Part shown: positions 5,448 to 16,022 of the stretch, in pieces
Numbering within the stretch: position 1 is the first letter of the stretch
Layout of the letters: each line of letters begins with the position of its first letter
Assembly: GCF_005405465.1 (NCBI RefSeq)
Contig: NZ_BJEC01000004.1
Span: forward strand, 1 to 64,000
Reading direction: 5' to 3'
DNA from: Weissella thailandensis
Lineage (GTDB): Bacteria > Bacillota > Bacilli > Lactobacillales > Lactobacillaceae
DNA length: 64,000 nucleotides
Translations under genes and position numbers: made by a program
The notes under the pieces: generated by a model
Told to the model about the DNA's origin: nothing
What the model saw: the letters and a program-made list of their open reading frames with translations, nothing else
Database searches by the model: none

Positions 5448-5560
5448 TTATTATTTATCTAGCCATTCGTGTCACGTATCGGTAGATTTTTATTTAAAAT
5501 TAGCGCTTGCATTTTTGGAGAAGCCTAGTAGAATCAACTGATAAATAAATATGAACAACC

Positions 5561-5634
5561 TTGTAGATTTAATCGTTAGATAAATGGGCTAACAAGTTTC
5601 TACCGCCTACCCGATAATAGGCGACAATCCACAA
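5561..5634 (+). ncRNA. purine riboswitch aptamer, guanine type
   Basis: All parts of the purine aptamer are present. P1 is ttgtagatt/aatccacaa with one mismatch. J1/2 is TAATC. P2 is gttag/ctaac with a GG-containing loop. J2/3 is AAGTTTCTACC, identical to the B. subtilis xpt aptamer. P3 is gccta/taggc. The specificity base in J3/1 (GAC, position 5625) is C, which by family knowledge selects guanine or hypoxanthine over adenine. The usual U after it is A here. It lies in the guaB leader just ahead of a strong terminator. Confidence 0.88.
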
Positions 5635-5662
5635 TTGTTTAGTGAAACTATCTGGTTAACTA

Positions 5663-7826: not shown

Positions 7827-7835
7827 CTATATTAG

Positions 7836-7908
7836 TGGACAAGCAGGGGCTCGAACCCTGGACCCACGGATTAAGAGTCCGTTGCTCTACCAACTGAGCT
7901 ACTTGTCC
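7836..7908 (-). tRNA. tRNA-Lys (anticodon CUU), third copy
   Basis: The 73 bases are identical to the copies at 1137 and 1320, with the anticodon loop CTCTTAA and no encoded CCA. It stands alone between guaB and walR, with its own promoter. Confidence 0.97.
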
Positions 7909-8124: not shown

Positions 8125-8159
8125 ATCAACCAGAGACCCACTCCTGGGAGGATATAGTG

Positions 8160-8864
8160 ATGAGTAAAATATTGGTCGTAGATGACGAAAAGCCTATCTC
8201 AGATATTATAAAATTTAATTTAACTAAAGAAGGTTATGATGTCGCTGTGGCGATGGATGGTCGTGAAGCTTTAGATTTATTTGAGAGTGAGGAACCGGAC
8301 TTGGTTTTGCTTGATCAAATGTTACCTGAAGTTGAAGGAACTGAAGTATTACGTCAAATTCGGACAAAATCTCAGACACCAGTTATCATGGTTACTGCTA
8401 AGGATTCGGAAATTGACAAAGTGCTTGGATTAGAAATGGGTGCAGATGATTACGTCACAAAGCCTTTTTCAAATCGAGAATTATTAGCGCGAATCAAGGC
8501 TAATTTACGTCGCCAATCACCAGTTTCTGGCCAATCAGGTCAAATCGATGATAGTAGTGATATTAAAATCGGTGCATTAACTATCCACCCCGATGCCTAT
8601 ATGGTTTCTAAAAACGGACAAGATATTGAATTGACCCACCGTGAGTTTGAATTGTTGCATCATTTGTCAAAACATATTGGACAAGTTATGACACGTGATG
8701 ATTTACTACAAACGGTATGGGGTTATGATTATTTTGGTGATGTACGTACAGTAGATGTTACCGTACGACGTATCCGTGAAAAAATTGAAGAAACCCCAAG
8801 TCATCCACAAATTTTGATGACACGTCGTGGTGTTGGTTATTATCTGAAAGCTTCAGAAGAATAG
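8160..8864 (+). CDS. walR: response regulator WalR (YycF), OmpR family
   Basis: This is the DNA-binding response regulator of the WalRK system, which controls peptidoglycan hydrolases and is essential in most Firmicutes. The receiver domain (1-118) has acidic residues VVDDE, phospho-acceptor Asp52 in [11 protein letters not shown], Thr in VTAKD and Lys in TKPF. The winged-helix domain (about 135-230) ends with [17 protein letters not shown] and [11 protein letters not shown] 8160 lies 8 bases from gggagg; GTG 8157 is possible. It is the first gene of a walR-walK-walH-walI-walJ series, but a hairpin separates it from walK. Confidence 0.97.
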
Positions 8865-8876
8865 ATCATTAAATTT

Positions 8877-8919
8877 AAAGGCTAGTGCCTTGCCGAGTGG
8901 CATGGGACTAGCCTTTTTC
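8877..8919 (+). terminator. hairpin between walR and walK (partial terminator)
   Basis: The arms aaaggctagt...actagcctttt are followed by T5. Lying between two genes that must be co-expressed, it probably lowers walK mRNA relative to walR rather than ending the operon. Confidence 0.65.
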
Positions 8920-8941
8920 GTAATTAAGGAAGGCAATATAT

Positions 8942-10825
8942 ATGCAAAGTAGTCGCAAATGGCGTCGCTTTTTTTCATCCATTCACTTTAAAATTGCACT
9001 AGTATTTACGCTAACATTAATTGTTACTTTGGAATTAGTTGGTGCCTTTTTTGTGCGCCAGTTGGAACAGCAAAGTTTAGCATCTTTTCGTGATCAAATT
9101 GCCTTGCCTGCGTATGTTGATGATTCTTTGACACAACAATTAGCTAGTAATAGCCAATCGAAAGTGAATCAGAATGTGCATACGATTCTGAACTCGACGA
9201 ACAATGCGGCAATTTCAGAAGTTCAGGTCTTTGATACGGCAGGGGTATTGCGTGGAACAGATGACGTTAATAACCAAGATAAAATTGGTCAGAAGACGAC
9301 TGATAAAAATATTAAAGCGGCTATTGACGGTAATAAATATCGGAAAAACCCCATTGTTACGAATAATGGGACACGTTATCAATTAGTTGTTAAACCACTA
9401 GTTAGTACAGTGAACGGAGAAAGTAATGTCGTTGGTGTCGTTATTGTCCGTGCCAGCTTAGAATCTGTTTATGATAATCTAACGAAGATATCATACATTT
9501 ATTTTGCTTCATTAGTTTTTGCAGTTGTTTTGGGAATTATTATGGCGATTTTTATTTCGCGTAGTATTACGCGACCAATTGCCGAAATTAGTGCTAGAAC
9601 GGCTAAAATTGCCCAAGGAGATTATTCTGGTGGTATTGTTGTTCGCACAAATGATGAAATTGGTAAGTTAGCGCAAGATGTGAATGTCTTAGCTGAACGA
9701 ATCGAAGAAACGACTAATTCGATGGACTTTGAACGTCGACGTCTGGACTCTGTTTTGGAACACATGACTGATGGGGTCATTGCCACGGATCGACGTGGTA
9801 ATATCAACATTATCAATATTGCTGCTTTACGGATGACAGGTATACCGGAAAATAAAGCGGCTAATGGACGTTCGATTTTGGATGTTTTACGTATTGCTAA
9901 TCAATATAGTTTACGTGATCTATTAGATAATCGACATGAGTTGTTACTAGATTTTAGTACGGATGAACATCCATTAATGATTCGCGCATACTTTAGTCTG
10001 ATTGAACGATCATCTGGATTCATTTCAGGATTAGTTATTGTACTGCATGACGTTACGGAACAACAACGTACTGAACGTGAGCGGCGTCAATTCGTTTCGA
10101 ATGTTTCGCATGAGTTGCGAACACCGTTGACTTCTGTTAAATCATATGTTGATGCCTTACAAGATGGTGCGGTGGATGATCCTGAGGTTGCCCATAGTTT
10201 CTTACATGTTGCTCAGGATGAAACAACTCGTATGATTCATATGATTAATGATTTACTAGAATTGTCGCGTATGGATTCAGGAACCATGAAGATTGAGGAA
10301 GAGTATATTAATATTGCCGAATTGTTTAATTATATTTTGGATCGTTTTGATATGATTATTGCCAATGATGATAAGCCTGAGAAATATTATACGATTAAGC
10401 GTATGATTCCTAAGCTGCAAATATGGGTAGAAATTGATACGTCGAAATTCACGCAGGTTATTGATAATATTATGAACAATGCGATTAAGTATTCACCTGA
10501 TGGTGGTGTTATTACTGCTCGCTTGGAAGATCGTGATAGTGAGGTTGTTTTGAGTATTACGGATCAAGGTCTAGGTATTCCAAAGGCAAACATGAAACAA
10601 ATTTTTGATCGCTTTTTCCGTGTTGATAAAGCGCGTTCTAGAGCGCAAGGTGGTACCGGACTTGGATTGGCTATCTCGAAGGAAATTATCGAGCGTTTTG
10701 GTGGTCGTGTATGGGTAGAATCAACTGAAGGTGAAGGTTCAACATTCTCAATTGCATTACCATATGAGCCATATGATGAACTAGATGATGAATGGGACGA
10801 TGGTGCTTGGGATGAAGAAGAATAA
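8942..10825 (+). CDS. walK: sensor histidine kinase WalK (YycG)
   Basis: This 627-residue membrane kinase phosphorylates WalR. Order: TM1 (about 13-33), an extracellular sensor loop of about 150 residues, TM2 (about 183-207), HAMP (ISRSITRPIAEIS), PAS (from about 265), the dimerisation/phospho-acceptor helix NVSHELRTPLTSV with His390, and the HATPase domain (NAIKYSPDGG, DQGLGIP, GTGLGLAIS). The C-terminus is an acidic tail (DELDDEWDDGAWDEEE), also seen in related lactobacilli. ATG 8942 follows aaggaaggc. The 3' end overlaps walH. Confidence 0.97.
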   Translation: MQSSRKWRRFFSSIHFKIALVFTLTLIVTLELVGAFFVRQLEQQSLASFRDQIALPAYVDDSLTQQLASNSQSKVNQNVHTILNSTNNAAISEVQVFDTAGVLRGTDDVNNQDKIGQKTTDKNIKAAIDGNKYRKNPIVTNNGTRYQLVVKPLVSTVNGESNVVGVVIVRASLESVYDNLTKISYIYFASLVFAVVLGIIMAIFISRSITRPIAEISARTAKIAQGDYSGGIVVRTNDEIGKLAQDVNVLAERIEETTNSMDFERRRLDSVLEHMTDGVIATDRRGNINIINIAALRMTGIPENKAANGRSILDVLRIANQYSLRDLLDNRHELLLDFSTDEHPLMIRAYFSLIERSSGFISGLVIVLHDVTEQQRTERERRQFVSNVSHELRTPLTSVKSYVDALQDGAVDDPEVAHSFLHVAQDETTRMIHMINDLLELSRMDSGTMKIEEEYINIAELFNYILDRFDMIIANDDKPEKYYTIKRMIPKLQIWVEIDTSKFTQVIDNIMNNAIKYSPDGGVITARLEDRDSEVVLSITDQGLGIPKANMKQIFDRFFRVDKARSRAQGGTGLGLAISKEIIERFGGRVWVESTEGEGSTFSIALPYEPYDELDDEWDDGAWDEEE

Positions 10826-12137
10826 GCAATGGCGAGTTAATATTAGATATTTTAGGCAACGCTATGGTGTGATTATTGCATTGGTTATTGCGATACTGAT
10901 CAGCATATTCCTGTCGATCCAATTATGGTACAGTCCTGGTCAGTCCACGAAACAACAAAGAGCTAATGAAACAGCTCAAGAAAATGCGACTGGTGAAAAT
11001 TTAACAAGTGTCTATAGCATTTCACAATTGGTTTTTAATCAATCGGACGAAAAAATCAGCGTGATTGATTATCGGACGTTATATGCAAAAATTGTTGACC
11101 GTGTAAAAGATTGGGATGCTGGCTATAAATCGAACGAGGTATTAAATAAACAAAATTATCTTGATTCACTTTCGCAAGAAAATTCAATTGTGATGACTTT
11201 TCCTGATGCGGTTTCTGGACATGTGATCAAGTCTATTTTTGGTAAGCGTATCAAGCTAGCTAATAATGCCACGATTAATCATGTGCAGGTACCGCAGGGT
11301 GATAGCAATAAATTCTATTTTTACGATGATCGACATCGTAAACGTTATACTTATCAAATTTCAAATGCACCAAAAAAGTTGCAACATCTAAAACCGGGCA
11401 AAAAGACGGCCGATGTTAGTTATCAGTGGGTTGGCAAACATGTGATGGCAGCCACGACAACGTCGGTTAACTTACAAAGTTACAGTTATTTGTTAGATGT
11501 CGATAGTACTGTGTCAAGATTGACCAAGCTGTTTTCAGATGGCGGGACGCGTGATGTTAACAATGGTCAAGAAATTTTAACGTATTCTAACGGTGATAAC
11601 AGGCGGATGCAACATAACGTAACAACGGGACTTATTAACTACGATGCTTATAATATTAATCGTGATGTAAATAGTCTTAGTCAGCGACAAAGTGAAGGCT
11701 ATCGCTGGTTGTTGCGTCTGCATCAAAATGCTGATAATTTGTATTACTTTGAAGAGCACGATCAAGGGCAAACTTTAACCTATCGTTTGTTTGTTAATGG
11801 TTTACCGATTTTTGGTCAGACGGCGTATGGGACTGTGCGTGTTAAACAATTACCTAATAACCATGAACGAATTGGTATGTCGCAATATTCGTTGCGAGTA
11901 CCCCTGCCAACGGATCAAAAAAATCAAGTTAATCTTGAACCGATGAACGATGCAATGGCTAAATTACAAAGTGTTGGTGTAGCTAGGGATGATATTGAGC
12001 AAATGACAATTGGCTATCGTTGGCAATTAGACACGGATAATCAGATCGTTACGTTGAACCCAGAATGGTGTTTTGAACAAGATCATGTTTGGCGGTCAGT
12101 CAATGAGCAAGTTAAAAGTGAGCAGGGAGGTCATTAA
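10812..12137 (+). CDS. walH: WalRK regulatory protein WalH (YycH)
   Basis: This 441-residue membrane-anchored accessory protein binds the WalK membrane region and tunes its kinase activity (known in B. subtilis and S. aureus). A single TM lies near residues 19-37 (GVIIALVIAILISIFL). The rest is extracytoplasmic with the YycH fold pattern (SISQLVFN, NGLPIFGQTAYG). Identification rests on position between walK and walI and on these segments. ATG 10812 overlaps the end of walK by 14 bases; an upstream in-frame ATG at 10785 is less likely because it would run deeper into walK. The stop abuts the ATG of walI. Confidence 0.88.
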   Translation: MKKNKQWRVNIRYFRQRYGVIIALVIAILISIFLSIQLWYSPGQSTKQQRANETAQENATGENLTSVYSISQLVFNQSDEKISVIDYRTLYAKIVDRVKDWDAGYKSNEVLNKQNYLDSLSQENSIVMTFPDAVSGHVIKSIFGKRIKLANNATINHVQVPQGDSNKFYFYDDRHRKRYTYQISNAPKKLQHLKPGKKTADVSYQWVGKHVMAATTTSVNLQSYSYLLDVDSTVSRLTKLFSDGGTRDVNNGQEILTYSNGDNRRMQHNVTTGLINYDAYNINRDVNSLSQRQSEGYRWLLRLHQNADNLYYFEEHDQGQTLTYRLFVNGLPIFGQTAYGTVRVKQLPNNHERIGMSQYSLRVPLPTDQKNQVNLEPMNDAMAKLQSVGVARDDIEQMTIGYRWQLDTDNQIVTLNPEWCFEQDHVWRSVNEQVKSEQGGH

Positions 12138-12956
12138 ATGGATTTTAAAAAAGTCTTAGCGGCCTTCTTGGTAGTGTTTGTTGCGGTAGATATTTTTTTA
12201 GGTGTGCAGTGGGTACAGGAATATCCATTTAGCGATAATCGTACGACTGATCAGCAAATACTAGATGAAATGAGTGATGATGGGATTTCCTATGGTAAAT
12301 TGTCACAGAATCGCCATACGGGTTCGTATTTGGCAGGTAAAAGTGGTAAACAAGAACTTGCTAATCAGAAAAAAGAGTTGAAGTCAGGTTGGCAATCATT
12401 ATTTTCAGATGACCAATTGGTAGTCATACCAGCCACAGATGTGCAATTAGGTACGGATGAAGATAGCGATCGTGTAGCTTTAGATAAATTAGTCGCCAAA
12501 GGTAATCGGGTTATTAAAGGTGATGAGTATCAATATAGTCAGAAGATGACCGAACTCGTGCGGGCTAAAGAAAATACATCTGCAAAACTTTATGCTTATG
12601 TAGAAAAAGTACCATCAGATAATCACACTCTTGTGACTGGCCAGGCGCAAATCGTTTTTGAAGTTGATAGTAAGCATCGTCTACAAAAATACGAGCAGCA
12701 ATATGTTAATCAATTGCAGTTCTTACGAGATGATATGCAATTGATTTCTGAGAAACAGGCTTTGATAAATCTCTATCAATACAATGAATTACCTAATAAT
12801 AGTACGGTTAAATTGTCAAAATTAGGTTATGCACCATTAACAACAGTCAAAGATGATATTATTTTTATACCTGTCTGGCAATTCCTAGTAGAAACCAGTA
12901 ATAAAGAAACGACCCTGATTACTGTTAATGCAATAAATGGGTCGATTATGAAATAA
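12138..12956 (+). CDS. walI: WalRK regulatory protein WalI (YycI)
   Basis: This 272-residue protein has one N-terminal TM (about 6-24) and an extracytoplasmic YycI/YycH-like domain ending in the pattern FIPVWQFLVET...NAINGSI. In B. subtilis WalI forms a complex with WalH and WalK at the membrane. It starts on the base after the walH stop, indicating translational coupling; cagggaggtcatta supplies the ribosome site. Confidence 0.88.
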   Translation: MDFKKVLAAFLVVFVAVDIFLGVQWVQEYPFSDNRTTDQQILDEMSDDGISYGKLSQNRHTGSYLAGKSGKQELANQKKELKSGWQSLFSDDQLVVIPATDVQLGTDEDSDRVALDKLVAKGNRVIKGDEYQYSQKMTELVRAKENTSAKLYAYVEKVPSDNHTLVTGQAQIVFEVDSKHRLQKYEQQYVNQLQFLRDDMQLISEKQALINLYQYNELPNNSTVKLSKLGYAPLTTVKDDIIFIPVWQFLVETSNKETTLITVNAINGSIMK

Positions 12957-13037
12957 ATATTCCATCACGTGTTAGAATATAACTTATAGTGGAATCATAG
13001 ATGAAAAGCGCGTTGACATCGTTGCCTTTTCTTGGTT

Positions 13038-13072
13038 GCCCGTAATCTCACAAAAATTAGTGGATTGCGGGC
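13038..13072 (+). terminator. hairpin after walI (weak)
   Basis: The arms gcccgtaatc/gattgcgggc form a stem followed by only ttct. It may be a weak terminator or processing site between walI and walJ. Confidence 0.35.
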
Positions 13073-13127
13073 TTCTAAGTATACTTTGACAGGAGACGTC
13101 GTATTTTCATTTAGTAAGGAGTTAGGA

Positions 13128-13928
13128 ATGGCGAACGATTTTAAAGTATCAATGTTAGCATCTGGTAGTAAAGGTAATGTGACGTTTATTGAAACGCCAC
13201 AGCATAATGTACTGGTGGACGCGGGATTATCTGGTAAGAAAATAGCTGGTTTAATGGCTCAGATAGGACGGTCCTTGACAGATGTGGATGCTTTGTTTGT
13301 GACCCATGAACATAGCGATCATATCGCAGGTGTTGGTGTTTTGGCCCGTAAATACGGGATGGATATCTATGCTAATCAAAAGACATGGGCGGCCATGCAA
13401 AATAAGATTGGTAAAATCAATCCAGATCAGATGCAATTATTTGAACCAGGTCGCACCAAGTTAATGGGAGACTTGGATATTGAGAGTTTCAGTGTATCTC
13501 ATGATGCAGCTGACCCACAGTTTTACGCCTTCCACCATGATAATAAAACCTTTGCTATGTTAACGGATACCGGGTACGTGAATGACCGGACGATTGGTGT
13601 CATTAAAAATTCGGATGCTATTCTAATGGAAGCTAACCATGATTATGAAATGTTACGCATGGGCAGTTATGCTTGGCCGTTGAAGCAACGTATTTTGAGT
13701 GATCAAGGTCATTTGTCTAATGAGGATGGTGCATTGGCCTTGACACAAATTCTTGGTAATCGTACAAAACATGTCTATTTAGGACACTTAAGTCAAGAAA
13801 ATAACCAAAAACCACTAGCGCACTTAACCGTACAATCAGTATTGGAGGAACACGATTTTGGTGTTGATCATGATTTCGGTTTATTAGATACGGATCCGTC
13901 TGTTGCAACGCAATTGATTCAAATATAG
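13128..13928 (+). CDS. walJ: WalJ (YycJ) metallo-beta-lactamase-fold hydrolase
   Basis: This 266-residue MBL-fold enzyme is probably an exonuclease-like phosphoesterase, as proposed for YycJ. Metal ligands are seen in VTHEHSDHIAG (HxHxDH, about residues 59-64), TDTGY and GHLS. The start at ATG 13128 follows taaggag. A frame extends upstream to 13032, but that part has no ribosome site and crosses a hairpin. It is the fifth gene of the wal series, with htrA next. Confidence 0.92.
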   Translation: MANDFKVSMLASGSKGNVTFIETPQHNVLVDAGLSGKKIAGLMAQIGRSLTDVDALFVTHEHSDHIAGVGVLARKYGMDIYANQKTWAAMQNKIGKINPDQMQLFEPGRTKLMGDLDIESFSVSHDAADPQFYAFHHDNKTFAMLTDTGYVNDRTIGVIKNSDAILMEANHDYEMLRMGSYAWPLKQRILSDQGHLSNEDGALALTQILGNRTKHVYLGHLSQENNQKPLAHLTVQSVLEEHDFGVDHDFGLLDTDPSVATQLIQI

Positions 13929-14035
13929 GATAAATCACCATGAGTTAAGGCGATTTAAAGGGGAATGTCTTAAAATCGTGGTTACATAGACAAACAAAAA
14001 TTAAAACAGGGAAACATAAGATACGGGGCATAAAT

Positions 14036-15253
14036 ATGAAATTATCATCAGGAACAAAAATTGTGGTAATGAGTGTCGTCGCTGGATTGATTGGTGGGGG
14101 AGCTGCTGCCGGGGGTGTGACATATTTTTCACAGGACAACCAGGCAGCCGAAACGTCTAGTAAGACGACCGCTGTCAAAGTGAACGACAATAATGTTAAA
14201 GGAACTTCAAGTGCGACTAAGGCATTTAAGAATGTGTCTGGTGCGGTCGTTTCAGTTATTAACCTACAAAAACAACAGTCGCTACAGTCAGGCATGTATG
14301 GTGGTATAACTGGTGATTCGTCTGATAGCGATTCGTCTGATCTTGAGACGGCCTCAGAAGGTTCAGGTGTTATTTATAAAAAGAATAATAACACGGCCTA
14401 TATTGTGACGAATAACCATGTTGTTTCGGATTCAAATGCTATCCAAGTCTTGTTGAGTGATGGTACAAAGTTAACGGCTAAATTAGTTGGTACTGATGAG
14501 CAAACCGATTTGGCAGTATTAAAGGTGTCAGCAAATAAAATTAAGGAAGTTGCCGATTTTGCCGATTCGTCTAAGGCCGAGGCTGGACAATCAGTGCTGG
14601 CTATTGGTTCACCACTAGGTTCTGACTATGCAACGTCAGTGACAGAGGGAATCGTTTCAGCGACAAAACGACAAGTTGATGCAACTGATGAGAGTGGTAA
14701 TTCATTAGGGAAAGCAACCGTTTTGCAAACTGATGCAGCTATTAATCCTGGAAATTCAGGTGGTCCGCTAGTTAACTTGGCTGGCCAAGTAGTTGGTATT
14801 AATTCAATGAAATTAGCATCCTCAGAAGATGGGACATCTGTCGAAGGGATGGGCTTTGCAATTCCTTCAAATACGGTCGTAAGCATTATTAATGAGCTAG
14901 AGAAGAATGGTAAGATTGAGCGGCCGGCCTTAGGAGTGTCAATGGTTGATTTGAGTAATGTTTCTACGAGTGATCAAAGCGATGTTTTGCATTTGCCTGC
15001 TAGTGTATCAGGTGGTGTTGTCGTGGTTGACACTGAGAGAGATTATCCAGCAGCAAATGGTGGCTTGACGCAATACGATGTGATTACCAAGGTTGATGGT
15101 AAGAGTGTCGATAATTCAGGTGAGCTCCGTGATGTACTGTATAAACACAAAATTGGTGATTCCGTTAAGTTAACTTACTACCACAGTGGTAAGGAAAAGA
15201 CGGTGACGGTGAAGTTGAATAAATCAACGAGCTCGCTAAGTAACGCCCAATAG
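14036..15253 (+). CDS. htrA: HtrA-like surface serine protease
   Basis: This 405-residue protein has an N-terminal anchor (about 8-30), a trypsin-like domain and one PDZ domain (about 290-390). The triad is His128 (TNNHVVS), Asp158 (QTDLAVL) and Ser241 (INPGNSGGPL). It degrades misfolded exported proteins and supports envelope stress tolerance. It follows walJ, as in other Lactobacillales. The rlmH gene that often comes next is absent from the following stretch. The ribosome site is weak (gatacggggc). Confidence 0.95.
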   Translation: MKLSSGTKIVVMSVVAGLIGGGAAAGGVTYFSQDNQAAETSSKTTAVKVNDNNVKGTSSATKAFKNVSGAVVSVINLQKQQSLQSGMYGGITGDSSDSDSSDLETASEGSGVIYKKNNNTAYIVTNNHVVSDSNAIQVLLSDGTKLTAKLVGTDEQTDLAVLKVSANKIKEVADFADSSKAEAGQSVLAIGSPLGSDYATSVTEGIVSATKRQVDATDESGNSLGKATVLQTDAAINPGNSGGPLVNLAGQVVGINSMKLASSEDGTSVEGMGFAIPSNTVVSIINELEKNGKIERPALGVSMVDLSNVSTSDQSDVLHLPASVSGGVVVVDTERDYPAANGGLTQYDVITKVDGKSVDNSGELRDVLYKHKIGDSVKLTYYHSGKEKTVTVKLNKSTSSLSNAQ

Positions 15254-15271
15254 ATAACAATAAAATGTGAG

Positions 15272-15301
15272 AAAGGTATGAATAAATTCGTACCTTTTTA
15301 T
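15272..15301 (+). terminator. htrA terminator
   Basis: The stem aaaggtatgaat/attcgtaccttt with T5 lies 19 bases after the htrA stop. Confidence 0.8.
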
Positions 15302-15323
15302 TTTGTAAAACAAAATGAAATAT

Positions 15324-15359
15324 TTACGTAACGTAAGTGAAACAGTGATTGTTTATACT
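15324..15359 (+). promoter_or_regulatory. promoter and short palindrome ahead of candidate sRNA
   Basis: TATACT at 15354-15359 is a good -10 box. The palindrome TTACGT-a-ACGTAA (15324-15336) occupies the -35 region and could be an operator. Confidence 0.45.
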
Positions 15360-15365
15360 ATAAAT

Positions 15366-15516
15366 ATCCGCTTTTGTTAGTGGAATTCATTACTCCCCAA
15401 AGTATATGAAAAATTACATAGTTCTCCAAACTATGTATCCCCCCTTCGCTGGTTGCGATAGTAGCCGGCGGTGGACCATCGCTGCGTTCCCCCTCTTGCA
15501 CGATGGTCTTTTTTTT
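15366..15516 (+). ncRNA. candidate small RNA with C-rich loops
   Basis: There is no coding frame here. About 150 bases lie between a -10 box and a terminator with eight T. Four hairpins can be drawn: tccgc/gtgga; acatagtt/aactatgt with loop ctcca; gctgg/ccggc; and gaccatcg/cgatggtc, whose loop holds ttccccctctt. Unpaired or loop segments carry CTCCCC, CTCC, TCCCCCC and TCCCCC, which are complementary to Shine-Dalgarno GGAGG. This is the architecture of translation-repressing RNAs such as RsaE/RoxS, though the sequence itself is not recognised. The + strand is favoured by the T-run. Confidence 0.55.
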
Positions 15517-15522
15517 ATCCAA

Positions 15523-15580
15523 AAAAGTCGTTTACAAAAGATAATTTGACTAGATGTCAATTTTTTTGTAAACGACTTTT
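15523..15580. terminator. bidirectional terminator
   Basis: Seventeen-base arms (aaaagtcgtttacaaaa / ttttgtaaacgactttt) enclose an inner ttgac/gtcaa stem. It separates the sRNA candidate from the minus-strand gene at 15585. Confidence 0.8.
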
Positions 15581-15584
15581 CTTT

Positions 15585-16022
15585 TTATGATTGTATGTTT
15601 AATGTTAGTTGGTATTGGCCAATGACTGCATGGTTATTTAACAAAGTGTATGCGACGACTAATTCGCCATAAGGGTGATCGGACGTGATTTCGTTGCTTA
15701 ATTGGTCAGTTCTAACTGCAATGGGGATATTTCCCTGTGATGTTACGTAATGTGATGGGAATTCTTGATCAGGAACAAAGTGTAGTTGCACATCCGTGAA
15801 ATCATTATGCCGATGTAGCGATATATCGTCGCTTTGTGCTATTTTAAAAGTGACAGGTGTTGCGACACCTTGCTGATGCTCAGTATAGCGTAAGTACAGG
15901 GCATTCATCGTTAAGGTTAATTTACCAGCTTCCTCAAAGTTAAAAGTTTCAACTTGGTCATCTTGTGTGATTTTGGTTGATAGGGAAATGGTTGTTGACC
16001 ATGTTTTTCTCATAGGTTGCAT
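15585..16022 (-). CDS. DUF1934 (YwiB-like) beta-barrel protein
   Basis: This 145-residue soluble protein has the DUF1934 pattern: alternating beta strands, central LYLRYTEHQQGVATPVTFKI, and a C-terminal ELVVAYTLLNNHAVIGQYQLTLNI. Members are calycin-like barrels of unknown role that often lie near argS, rpoE or HD-hydrolase genes. ATG 16022 follows aaggag at 7 bases; a second Met three codons on is possible. It is divergent from the HD hydrolase at 16126. Confidence 0.85.
   Translation of the reverse strand: MQPMRKTWSTTISLSTKITQDDQVETFNFEEAGKLTLTMNALYLRYTEHQQGVATPVTFKIAQSDDISLHRHNDFTDVQLHFVPDQEFPSHYVTSQGNIPIAVRTDQLSNEITSDHPYGELVVAYTLLNNHAVIGQYQLTLNIQS

Follow-up and report, generated by a model that had tools for sequence, protein, structure and literature searches.

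A conserved five-hairpin RNA gene beside walRK-htrA in Weissella, a probable anti-Shine-Dalgarno regulator

RsaE/RoxS and FsrA are small RNAs with metabolic targets, and their architecture and locus are unlike those of the Weissella RNA described here. In LhrC, RsaE and FsrA, UCCC motifs are described as binding Shine-Dalgarno (SD) sites (PMC4132741). The LhrC1-5 RNAs of Listeria carry UCCC motifs that bind mRNA in two loops, one of them the terminator loop, and in a linker; they depend on LisR, whose two-component system answers envelope stress (PMC4132741). The streptococcal csRNAs, which occur in several copies, contain anti-SD and often also CAU anti-start segments. CiaR controls their promoters by way of a direct repeat with an N5 spacer and regulates htrA as well in those bacteria, and 13 predicted csRNAs have structures more complex than two stem-loops (PMC3091779). 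Weissella itself is described as having a transcribed, non-canonical 6S RNA candidate downstream of rarA (PMC8414754).

We analyzed 64,000 nucleotides of a Weissella thailandensis contig (NZ_BJEC01000004.1; hereafter, the window). Computation on the window and its relatives finds an RNA gene, its structure, conserved loops, a syntenic position and phased repeats in the promoter (Table 1). The original prediction had placed a candidate anti-SD RNA after htrA, and the walRK operon, the phased repeats and the relatives in other genera were all absent from it. LhrC is the closest analogy, with the CiaR-dependent csRNAs second. As in LhrC, UCCC-type motifs are redundant (hairpins 2, 3 and 5, terminator loop included), and control by an envelope-stress two-component system, proposed here for the Weissella RNA, would be a further likeness. 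The Weissella RNA differs from LhrC in having no Rfam match, five hairpins and a single match in each of 28 genomes, and in adjoining walRK-htrA. Putative anti-SD segments, an N5-type direct repeat at the promoter and a link to htrA recall the csRNAs. However, these segments lie in loops of a five-hairpin RNA and not in an unpaired region between two stem-loops, a plan from which 13 predicted csRNAs also depart, and by eye no CiaR box (TTTAAG-N5-TTTAAG) was seen in 15300-15366. C-rich stretches predicted to pair with SD sites are shared with RsaE/RoxS and FsrA (for RsaE and FsrA, PMC4132741), but the RNA matches no such Rfam family. The 6S candidate comes from the same genus, but lies at rarA and not at htrA.

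At the gathering score, Rfam (release 15, 4227 families) gave nothing at the RNA locus. None of the 15 weak matches obtained at E up to 10 was credible and LhrC was not among them, in keeping with the earlier remark that the sequence belongs to no recognized family. Plasmid records searched with the RNA gave no match, and the RNA was not found reported in the titles and abstract openings of the literature searched. It is a new RNA family of a known kind, placed in neither the LhrC nor the csRNA family.

Table 1. Features of the walRK-htrA-RNA region (positions in the window).
Feature	Position	Strand	Basis or remark
walR (yycF) response regulator gene, operon head	8157..8864	+	NCBIfam resp_reg_YycF 392 bits, cut-off 340
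walK sensor kinase gene	8942..10825	+	NCBIfam HK_WalK 780 bits, cut-off 725
htrA-type serine protease gene	14036..15253	+	last gene of walRK operon, upstream of RNA
Terminator-like hairpin	15270..15299	+	after htrA; separates htrA from RNA gene
11-bp-phased half-sites GAAATA, GTAACG, GAAACA	15317..15344	+	putative WalR/PhoP-like response-regulator site
-10 box TATACT	15354..15359	+	chosen by eye from alignment
Small RNA gene, ~150 nt, five hairpins	15366..15516	+	fold; covariance model 172.9 bits at 15362-15523
Hairpin 1	15367..15384	+	co-varying stem; loop not C-rich
Hairpin 2	15386..15410	+	UCAUU(A/G)CUCCCCAAAGUA in 20/20 aligned sequences
Hairpin 3	15415..15437	+	co-varying stem; loop CUCCA in window
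C-rich unpaired linker	15438..15445	+	varies among relatives
Hairpin 4	15446..15471	+	stem strongly co-varying; loop not C-rich
Terminator hairpin 5 and T run	15473..15516	+	loop UUCCCCCUCU; CCCCUCUU in 20/20 aligned sequences

The genes in 8157-15253 are, in order, walR, walK, those at the yycH and yycI places, a yycJ-like metallohydrolase gene and htrA. The yycH and yycI names come from position alone, NCBIfam matching neither gene, and the metallohydrolase was named by position and generic matches. On the 3' side of the RNA gene lie a convergent DUF1934 gene and then an HD-domain gene. An AT-rich long inverted repeat between the RNA and the DUF1934 gene (15522-15590) is probably a bidirectional terminator. 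In 27 of 28 genomes of the genus, the RNA has htrA immediately upstream and in the same orientation; in the exception (genome G004, locus L043) htrA is present in scrambled pieces and was counted as lacking upstream. With htrA on one side, the convergent gene on the other and a terminator at its end, the RNA could be read as the htrA 3' untranslated region, or as a compound terminator serving both convergent genes, and would then have no function in trans. This is very improbable, given that a terminator-like hairpin already follows htrA, that the RNA has a -10 box and phased repeats in front of it, that five hairpins with fixed loops are more than a terminator needs, and that in other genera its relatives are not found next to htrA. 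Elsewhere in the window, three tRNA-Lys (CTT) genes with equal scores occur within 7 kb (1136-1209, 1319-1392, 7835-7908 (-)), and a purine riboswitch scores above its gathering score at 5545-5647 (+).

The RNA start was inferred at about 7 nt past the -10 box, and the eight-T run occupies 15509-15516; a -10 box and an eight-T terminator of its own had both been predicted. The plus strand folds at -55.1 kcal/mol against a shuffled mean of -29.2 (z -6.5; 0/200 shuffles as good), and the minus strand folds more weakly (z -3.7). In the alignment fitted to the covariance model, G-U cells number 131 and A-C cells 11. This preponderance of G-U cells, together with the weaker fold of the minus strand, makes the plus strand the likely transcript. 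Four hairpins had been drawn originally, whereas the predicted fold has five. All four C-rich segments described as unpaired or looped were located: CTCCCC (15393-15398), CTCC (15424-15427) and TTCCCCCTCT (15487-15496) in or at the loops of hairpins 2, 3 and 5, respectively, and CCCCCC (15439-15444) in the linker. The hairpin 3 loop reads CCCCA in 12 and CCCCC in four of the 20 aligned sequences.

When 60 genomes were searched with blastn, 55 had matches at E up to 1, many of these no better than chance. Twenty-four loci, the window's own included, align as homologs, all within the genus; the match in genome G024 has 95% identity over the 221 bases queried. A covariance model built from 20 sequences, after four near-identical to L007 had been dropped from the 24, matches all 28 genomes examined in the genus, at one place each. 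E-values are 2e-15 or better in 26 of these, and 0.002 and 0.09 in the other two, at the same locus. Outside the training sequences, L054 reaches 85 bits and L056 78.5 bits, both at the locus beside htrA; two further genomes reach 27 and 20 bits only, yet at that locus too. In a structure-blind alignment, 30 of 48 pairs show two-sided changes, with 107 double-change cells against 30.5 in shuffles. Paired cells amount to 89.7% compared with 78.6% when shuffled and drop to 36-47% for slid structures, and the covariation score is 0.414 compared with at most 0.149 for slid structures. Since all 28 genomes match and 30 of 48 pairs change on both sides, the structure is beyond chance. Hairpins 1, 3, 4 and 5 co-vary; hairpin 2, which hardly varies in its upper stem and loop, shows no two-sided changes, and its structure is that given by folding. 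The RNA gene is thus solid as a conserved structured gene.

At the loops, CUCCCCAAAGUA and CCCCUCUU are invariant across the 20 aligned sequences, an invariance that is partly selected because the sequences were found by blastn and excised by the hairpin 2 motif. Among genomes outside the alignment, L054, L056, L057 and L058 all differ within the CUCCCCAAAGUA motif, and L057 and L058 are without CCCCUCUU. The T run after hairpin 5 is missing in two of the 20 sequences (W. halotolerans and W. uvarum). In the alignment of relatives, loops are kept while stems change, and the flanks do not align. The pattern named at the outset as speaking against the RNA, unconserved C-rich loops between aligning flanks, is the reverse of this: loops are the most conserved part and the flanks diverge. 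Conserved loops on changing stems throughout a genus make this RNA a convenient system in which to test whether lactic acid bacteria regulate genes by SD blocking. An 18-base hairpin 2 pattern was also run over 84,980 named species. It occurs in 29 stretches, 18 in Weissella/Lactobacillaceae bins and 11 elsewhere, against an estimated 15 or so expected by chance. The covariance model matched 18/18 of the former with 82-175 bits, one of these being truncated by the edge; on the other 11 it reached at most 24.3 bits, one being without match. The 18/18 is a consistency check and not an independent test, because these are training sequences or near-identical to them.

A nearly fixed upper stem and loop in hairpin 2 is what a protein-binding site might also look like. 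The RNA could then act via a protein, or serve as a scaffold or a 6S-like or sponge-type decoy, with C-rich loops as protein-binding sites. In favor of this reading, efforts to confirm a canonical 6S RNA in Weissella are reported to have failed (PMC8414754). We consider this improbable, since the C-rich theme is repeated in three separate loops and, in low-GC bacteria, SD pairing is the role described for UCCC motifs (PMC4132741). The proposed Weissella 6S lies downstream of rarA, and Rfam found no match at the RNA locus. Neither does the RNA resemble 6S RNA: no Rfam 6S match was obtained, and the fold consists of separate hairpins and not of a long rod with a central bulge.

The description of the roughly 150-base segment as non-coding holds up, as its reading frame is not conserved. 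From the ATG in hairpin 2, a 47-codon frame opens in the window and frames of 38-53 codons open in six other species, which could be taken to mean that the locus encodes a small peptide. However, the frame has only 3-10 codons in 8 of 22 sequences, the ATG is missing in 3 of 22, the longer frames of other lineages read different sequence after indels, and an SD is absent before this ATG. Peptide coding was rejected on account of this unconserved frame, and its probability is negligible.

Relatives extend beyond the genus. In a 151-genome sample of the family (own genus included, stricter filters), an E of up to 1 was reached by 44 genomes, many of them weak matches, from 17 of 40 genera. The better matches recur within genera, in five genomes of g33, five of g34 and four of g36. 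These relatives carry CUCCCC or CUUCCCC loops and are located away from htrA; their neighbors, identified by eye from translations of some loci, are rplS-like, CBS-domain-transporter-like and MarR-like genes. Rfam matched none of the 11 relative loci scanned. In the order sample, 6 of 198 genomes have matches with E no higher than 0.01, and five of the six belong to the same family. The sixth (L074), from another family, has an E-value of 0.008, which is chance level for 198 genomes; its hairpin also shows ACUCCCCCAAAGU. Five genomes of one genus (L069-L073) have, at about 1520-1640, an RNA with TTTTACTCCCCCAAAGTA and AATCCCCCAATT hairpin loops, and by eye a MarR-like gene is nearby in both loci read (L069 and L072).

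Relatives have TATATT, TATGAT and similar hexamers at the -10 place, and the phased half-sites of the window end 9 nt before its box. The direct repeat TGTWAH-N5-TGTWAH is described as the consensus bound by WalR/VicR (PMC4168254). When 20 promoters were lined up on -10 boxes picked from the alignment, WalR-type half-sites scored high about 15, 26 and 37 bases before the box, and in the opposite orientation 16, 27, 38 and 49 bases before it. Across 14 lineages, the best signal among all periods from 8 to 14 and all phases tried is a period of 11 (phase 15 or 16), and in either orientation 0/300 shuffles are as high, relatedness among the lineages not being controlled. Matches to the WalR consensus are 12/12 in L044, L050, L052, L053 and L054, and imperfect in the window. 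The signal is clear only with promoters lined up on the -10 box: tested singly, the best match reaches p <0.05 in only 8 of 38 promoters, and the window's own is no better than shuffles (p 0.62). The proximal half-site is poor in L050 and L053-L056, and the pattern is missing in L049 and L051 (7/20 in all). A palindrome, TTACGTAACGTAA, had originally been noted at the -35 region; it is present at 15324-15336 and was not seen in aligned relatives. We rejected it as an operator, as it is unconserved and the relatives keep 11-bp-phased direct repeats.

Genome-wide, perfect WalR boxes show no excess (31 compared with 30 for a reversed control). Among 30 loci read, five boxes precede three LysM-protein genes, a lectin-domain secreted-protein gene and a murA-like gene, as expected of WalR; eight are inside reading frames and others precede unrelated genes. 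It is possible that the boxes at LysM and lectin genes represent a WalR regulon in Weissella. A weight matrix from 13 Weissella promoters, run over 864 kb, ranks the window's own promoter first, but this promoter was in the training set. Its second match precedes a secreted-protein gene, and 13 of 17 held-out loci score under 7. In the window's own genome, perfect WalR-type boxes stand before secreted-protein genes at L115 (LysM-CHAP), L125 (LysM and aggregation-factor domain), L126 (LysM and KxYKxGKxW signal) and L122 (lectin domain).

Whether WalR is the regulator is about an even call. The same anti-SD RNA might instead be driven by another OmpR-family regulator of PhoP type, answering phosphate or some other signal and not cell-wall status. 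In genus g36, all four loci read have two to four TTCACA-type half-sites in 11-bp phase, with a 9-nt gap to a hand-picked -10 hexamer. These TTCACA/TTCATA half-sites fit a PhoP-like site as well or better, in agreement with the PhoP consensus. In 26 of 28 genomes of the genus, a second kinase near PnpS scores 321-365 bits, the cut-off of 400 being reached in 0/28, and in the window genome a PnpS-like kinase lies beside a YycF/PhoB-like regulator that reaches neither cut-off. Nevertheless, the phased signal in Weissella comes from the WalR half-site consensus, and the RNA gene follows htrA of the walRK operon in 27 of 28 genomes. A crude motif search of sampled genes, covering 44% of the genome and therefore weak, recognized no pst genes. 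PhoP-type control is thus a minority possibility, though a serious one.

From these features we infer that the gene is transcribed and activated, which regulator acts on it, and with which targets it pairs. The operon upstream supplies the most likely regulator, WalR; this or another response regulator of the OmpR family would bind the 11-bp-phased half-sites over the -35 region and activate transcription of a trans-acting RNA of about 150 nt. Of its five hairpins, numbers 2, 3 and 5 would expose C-rich loop stretches that pair with G-rich SD regions and so prevent translation; the best candidate targets are mRNAs for sugar uptake and sugar hydrolases. We regard this explanation as a whole, a trans-acting anti-SD RNA activated by an OmpR-family regulator, as likely, and the RNA as probably an anti-SD regulator. 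If WalR drives the RNA, an essential cell-wall system gains a post-transcriptional arm in food-relevant bacteria. A bolder version, which we find doubtful, has the WalR-activated RNA silencing sugar-uptake and hydrolase mRNAs and thereby coupling wall growth to carbon intake. In that version, hairpin 2 and C-rich loops under a phased OmpR-type promoter would define a Lactobacillaceae-wide family that moved between loci with promoter and loops kept.

The search for targets took in 791 genes, predicted from a sample amounting to 44% of the genome. Complementarity of at least 8 nt to a C-rich segment was found for 35 of them, against about 15 for shuffled segments. The excess of G-rich start sites over controls is no greater than that of AGGAGG, so it may only reflect SD sequences. 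The C-rich loops fit GGGGAG, UUGGGGA and AGAGGGG sites better than the GGAGG type, and pairing of the loops with such ribosome sites would repress translation. The longest complementarities, 10 nt each, are at the start sites of neighboring genes for a LacY-type permease and an arabinofuranosidase, predicted to pair with the hairpin 2 and hairpin 5 segments, respectively. The 10-nt permease match was found again in W. fangxianensis only. In W. bombi, W. cibaria and two genomes resembling W. confusa, the orthologs of the permease have a run of five or six Gs without the 10-nt match, and six more distant ones have ordinary start sites without a G run.

When 72 genes with at least 7 nt of complementarity were compared with 72 controls, sugar-transport or glycosidase proteins numbered at least six against at least one control among the Pfam matches listed (for each gene set, the first member and 25 of 122 families). 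A PTS transporter, below the family cut-off, is also in the target set, and NCBIfam counts for the first gene set were uninformative. This lean toward sugar genes is only a lead, because the comparison is small and based on the matches listed, and SD strength is a confounder. The best predicted targets, weakly indicated, are mRNAs for sugar uptake and sugar hydrolases. In W. fangxianensis the LacY-type permease gene is interrupted (L196 and L206, genome G024), its start site being equal to that of the window species. Four permease paralogs (L203, L204, L207 and L208) have GGGGG or GGGGGG ribosome sites and are followed, by eye, by a sucrose-type hydrolase-like gene.
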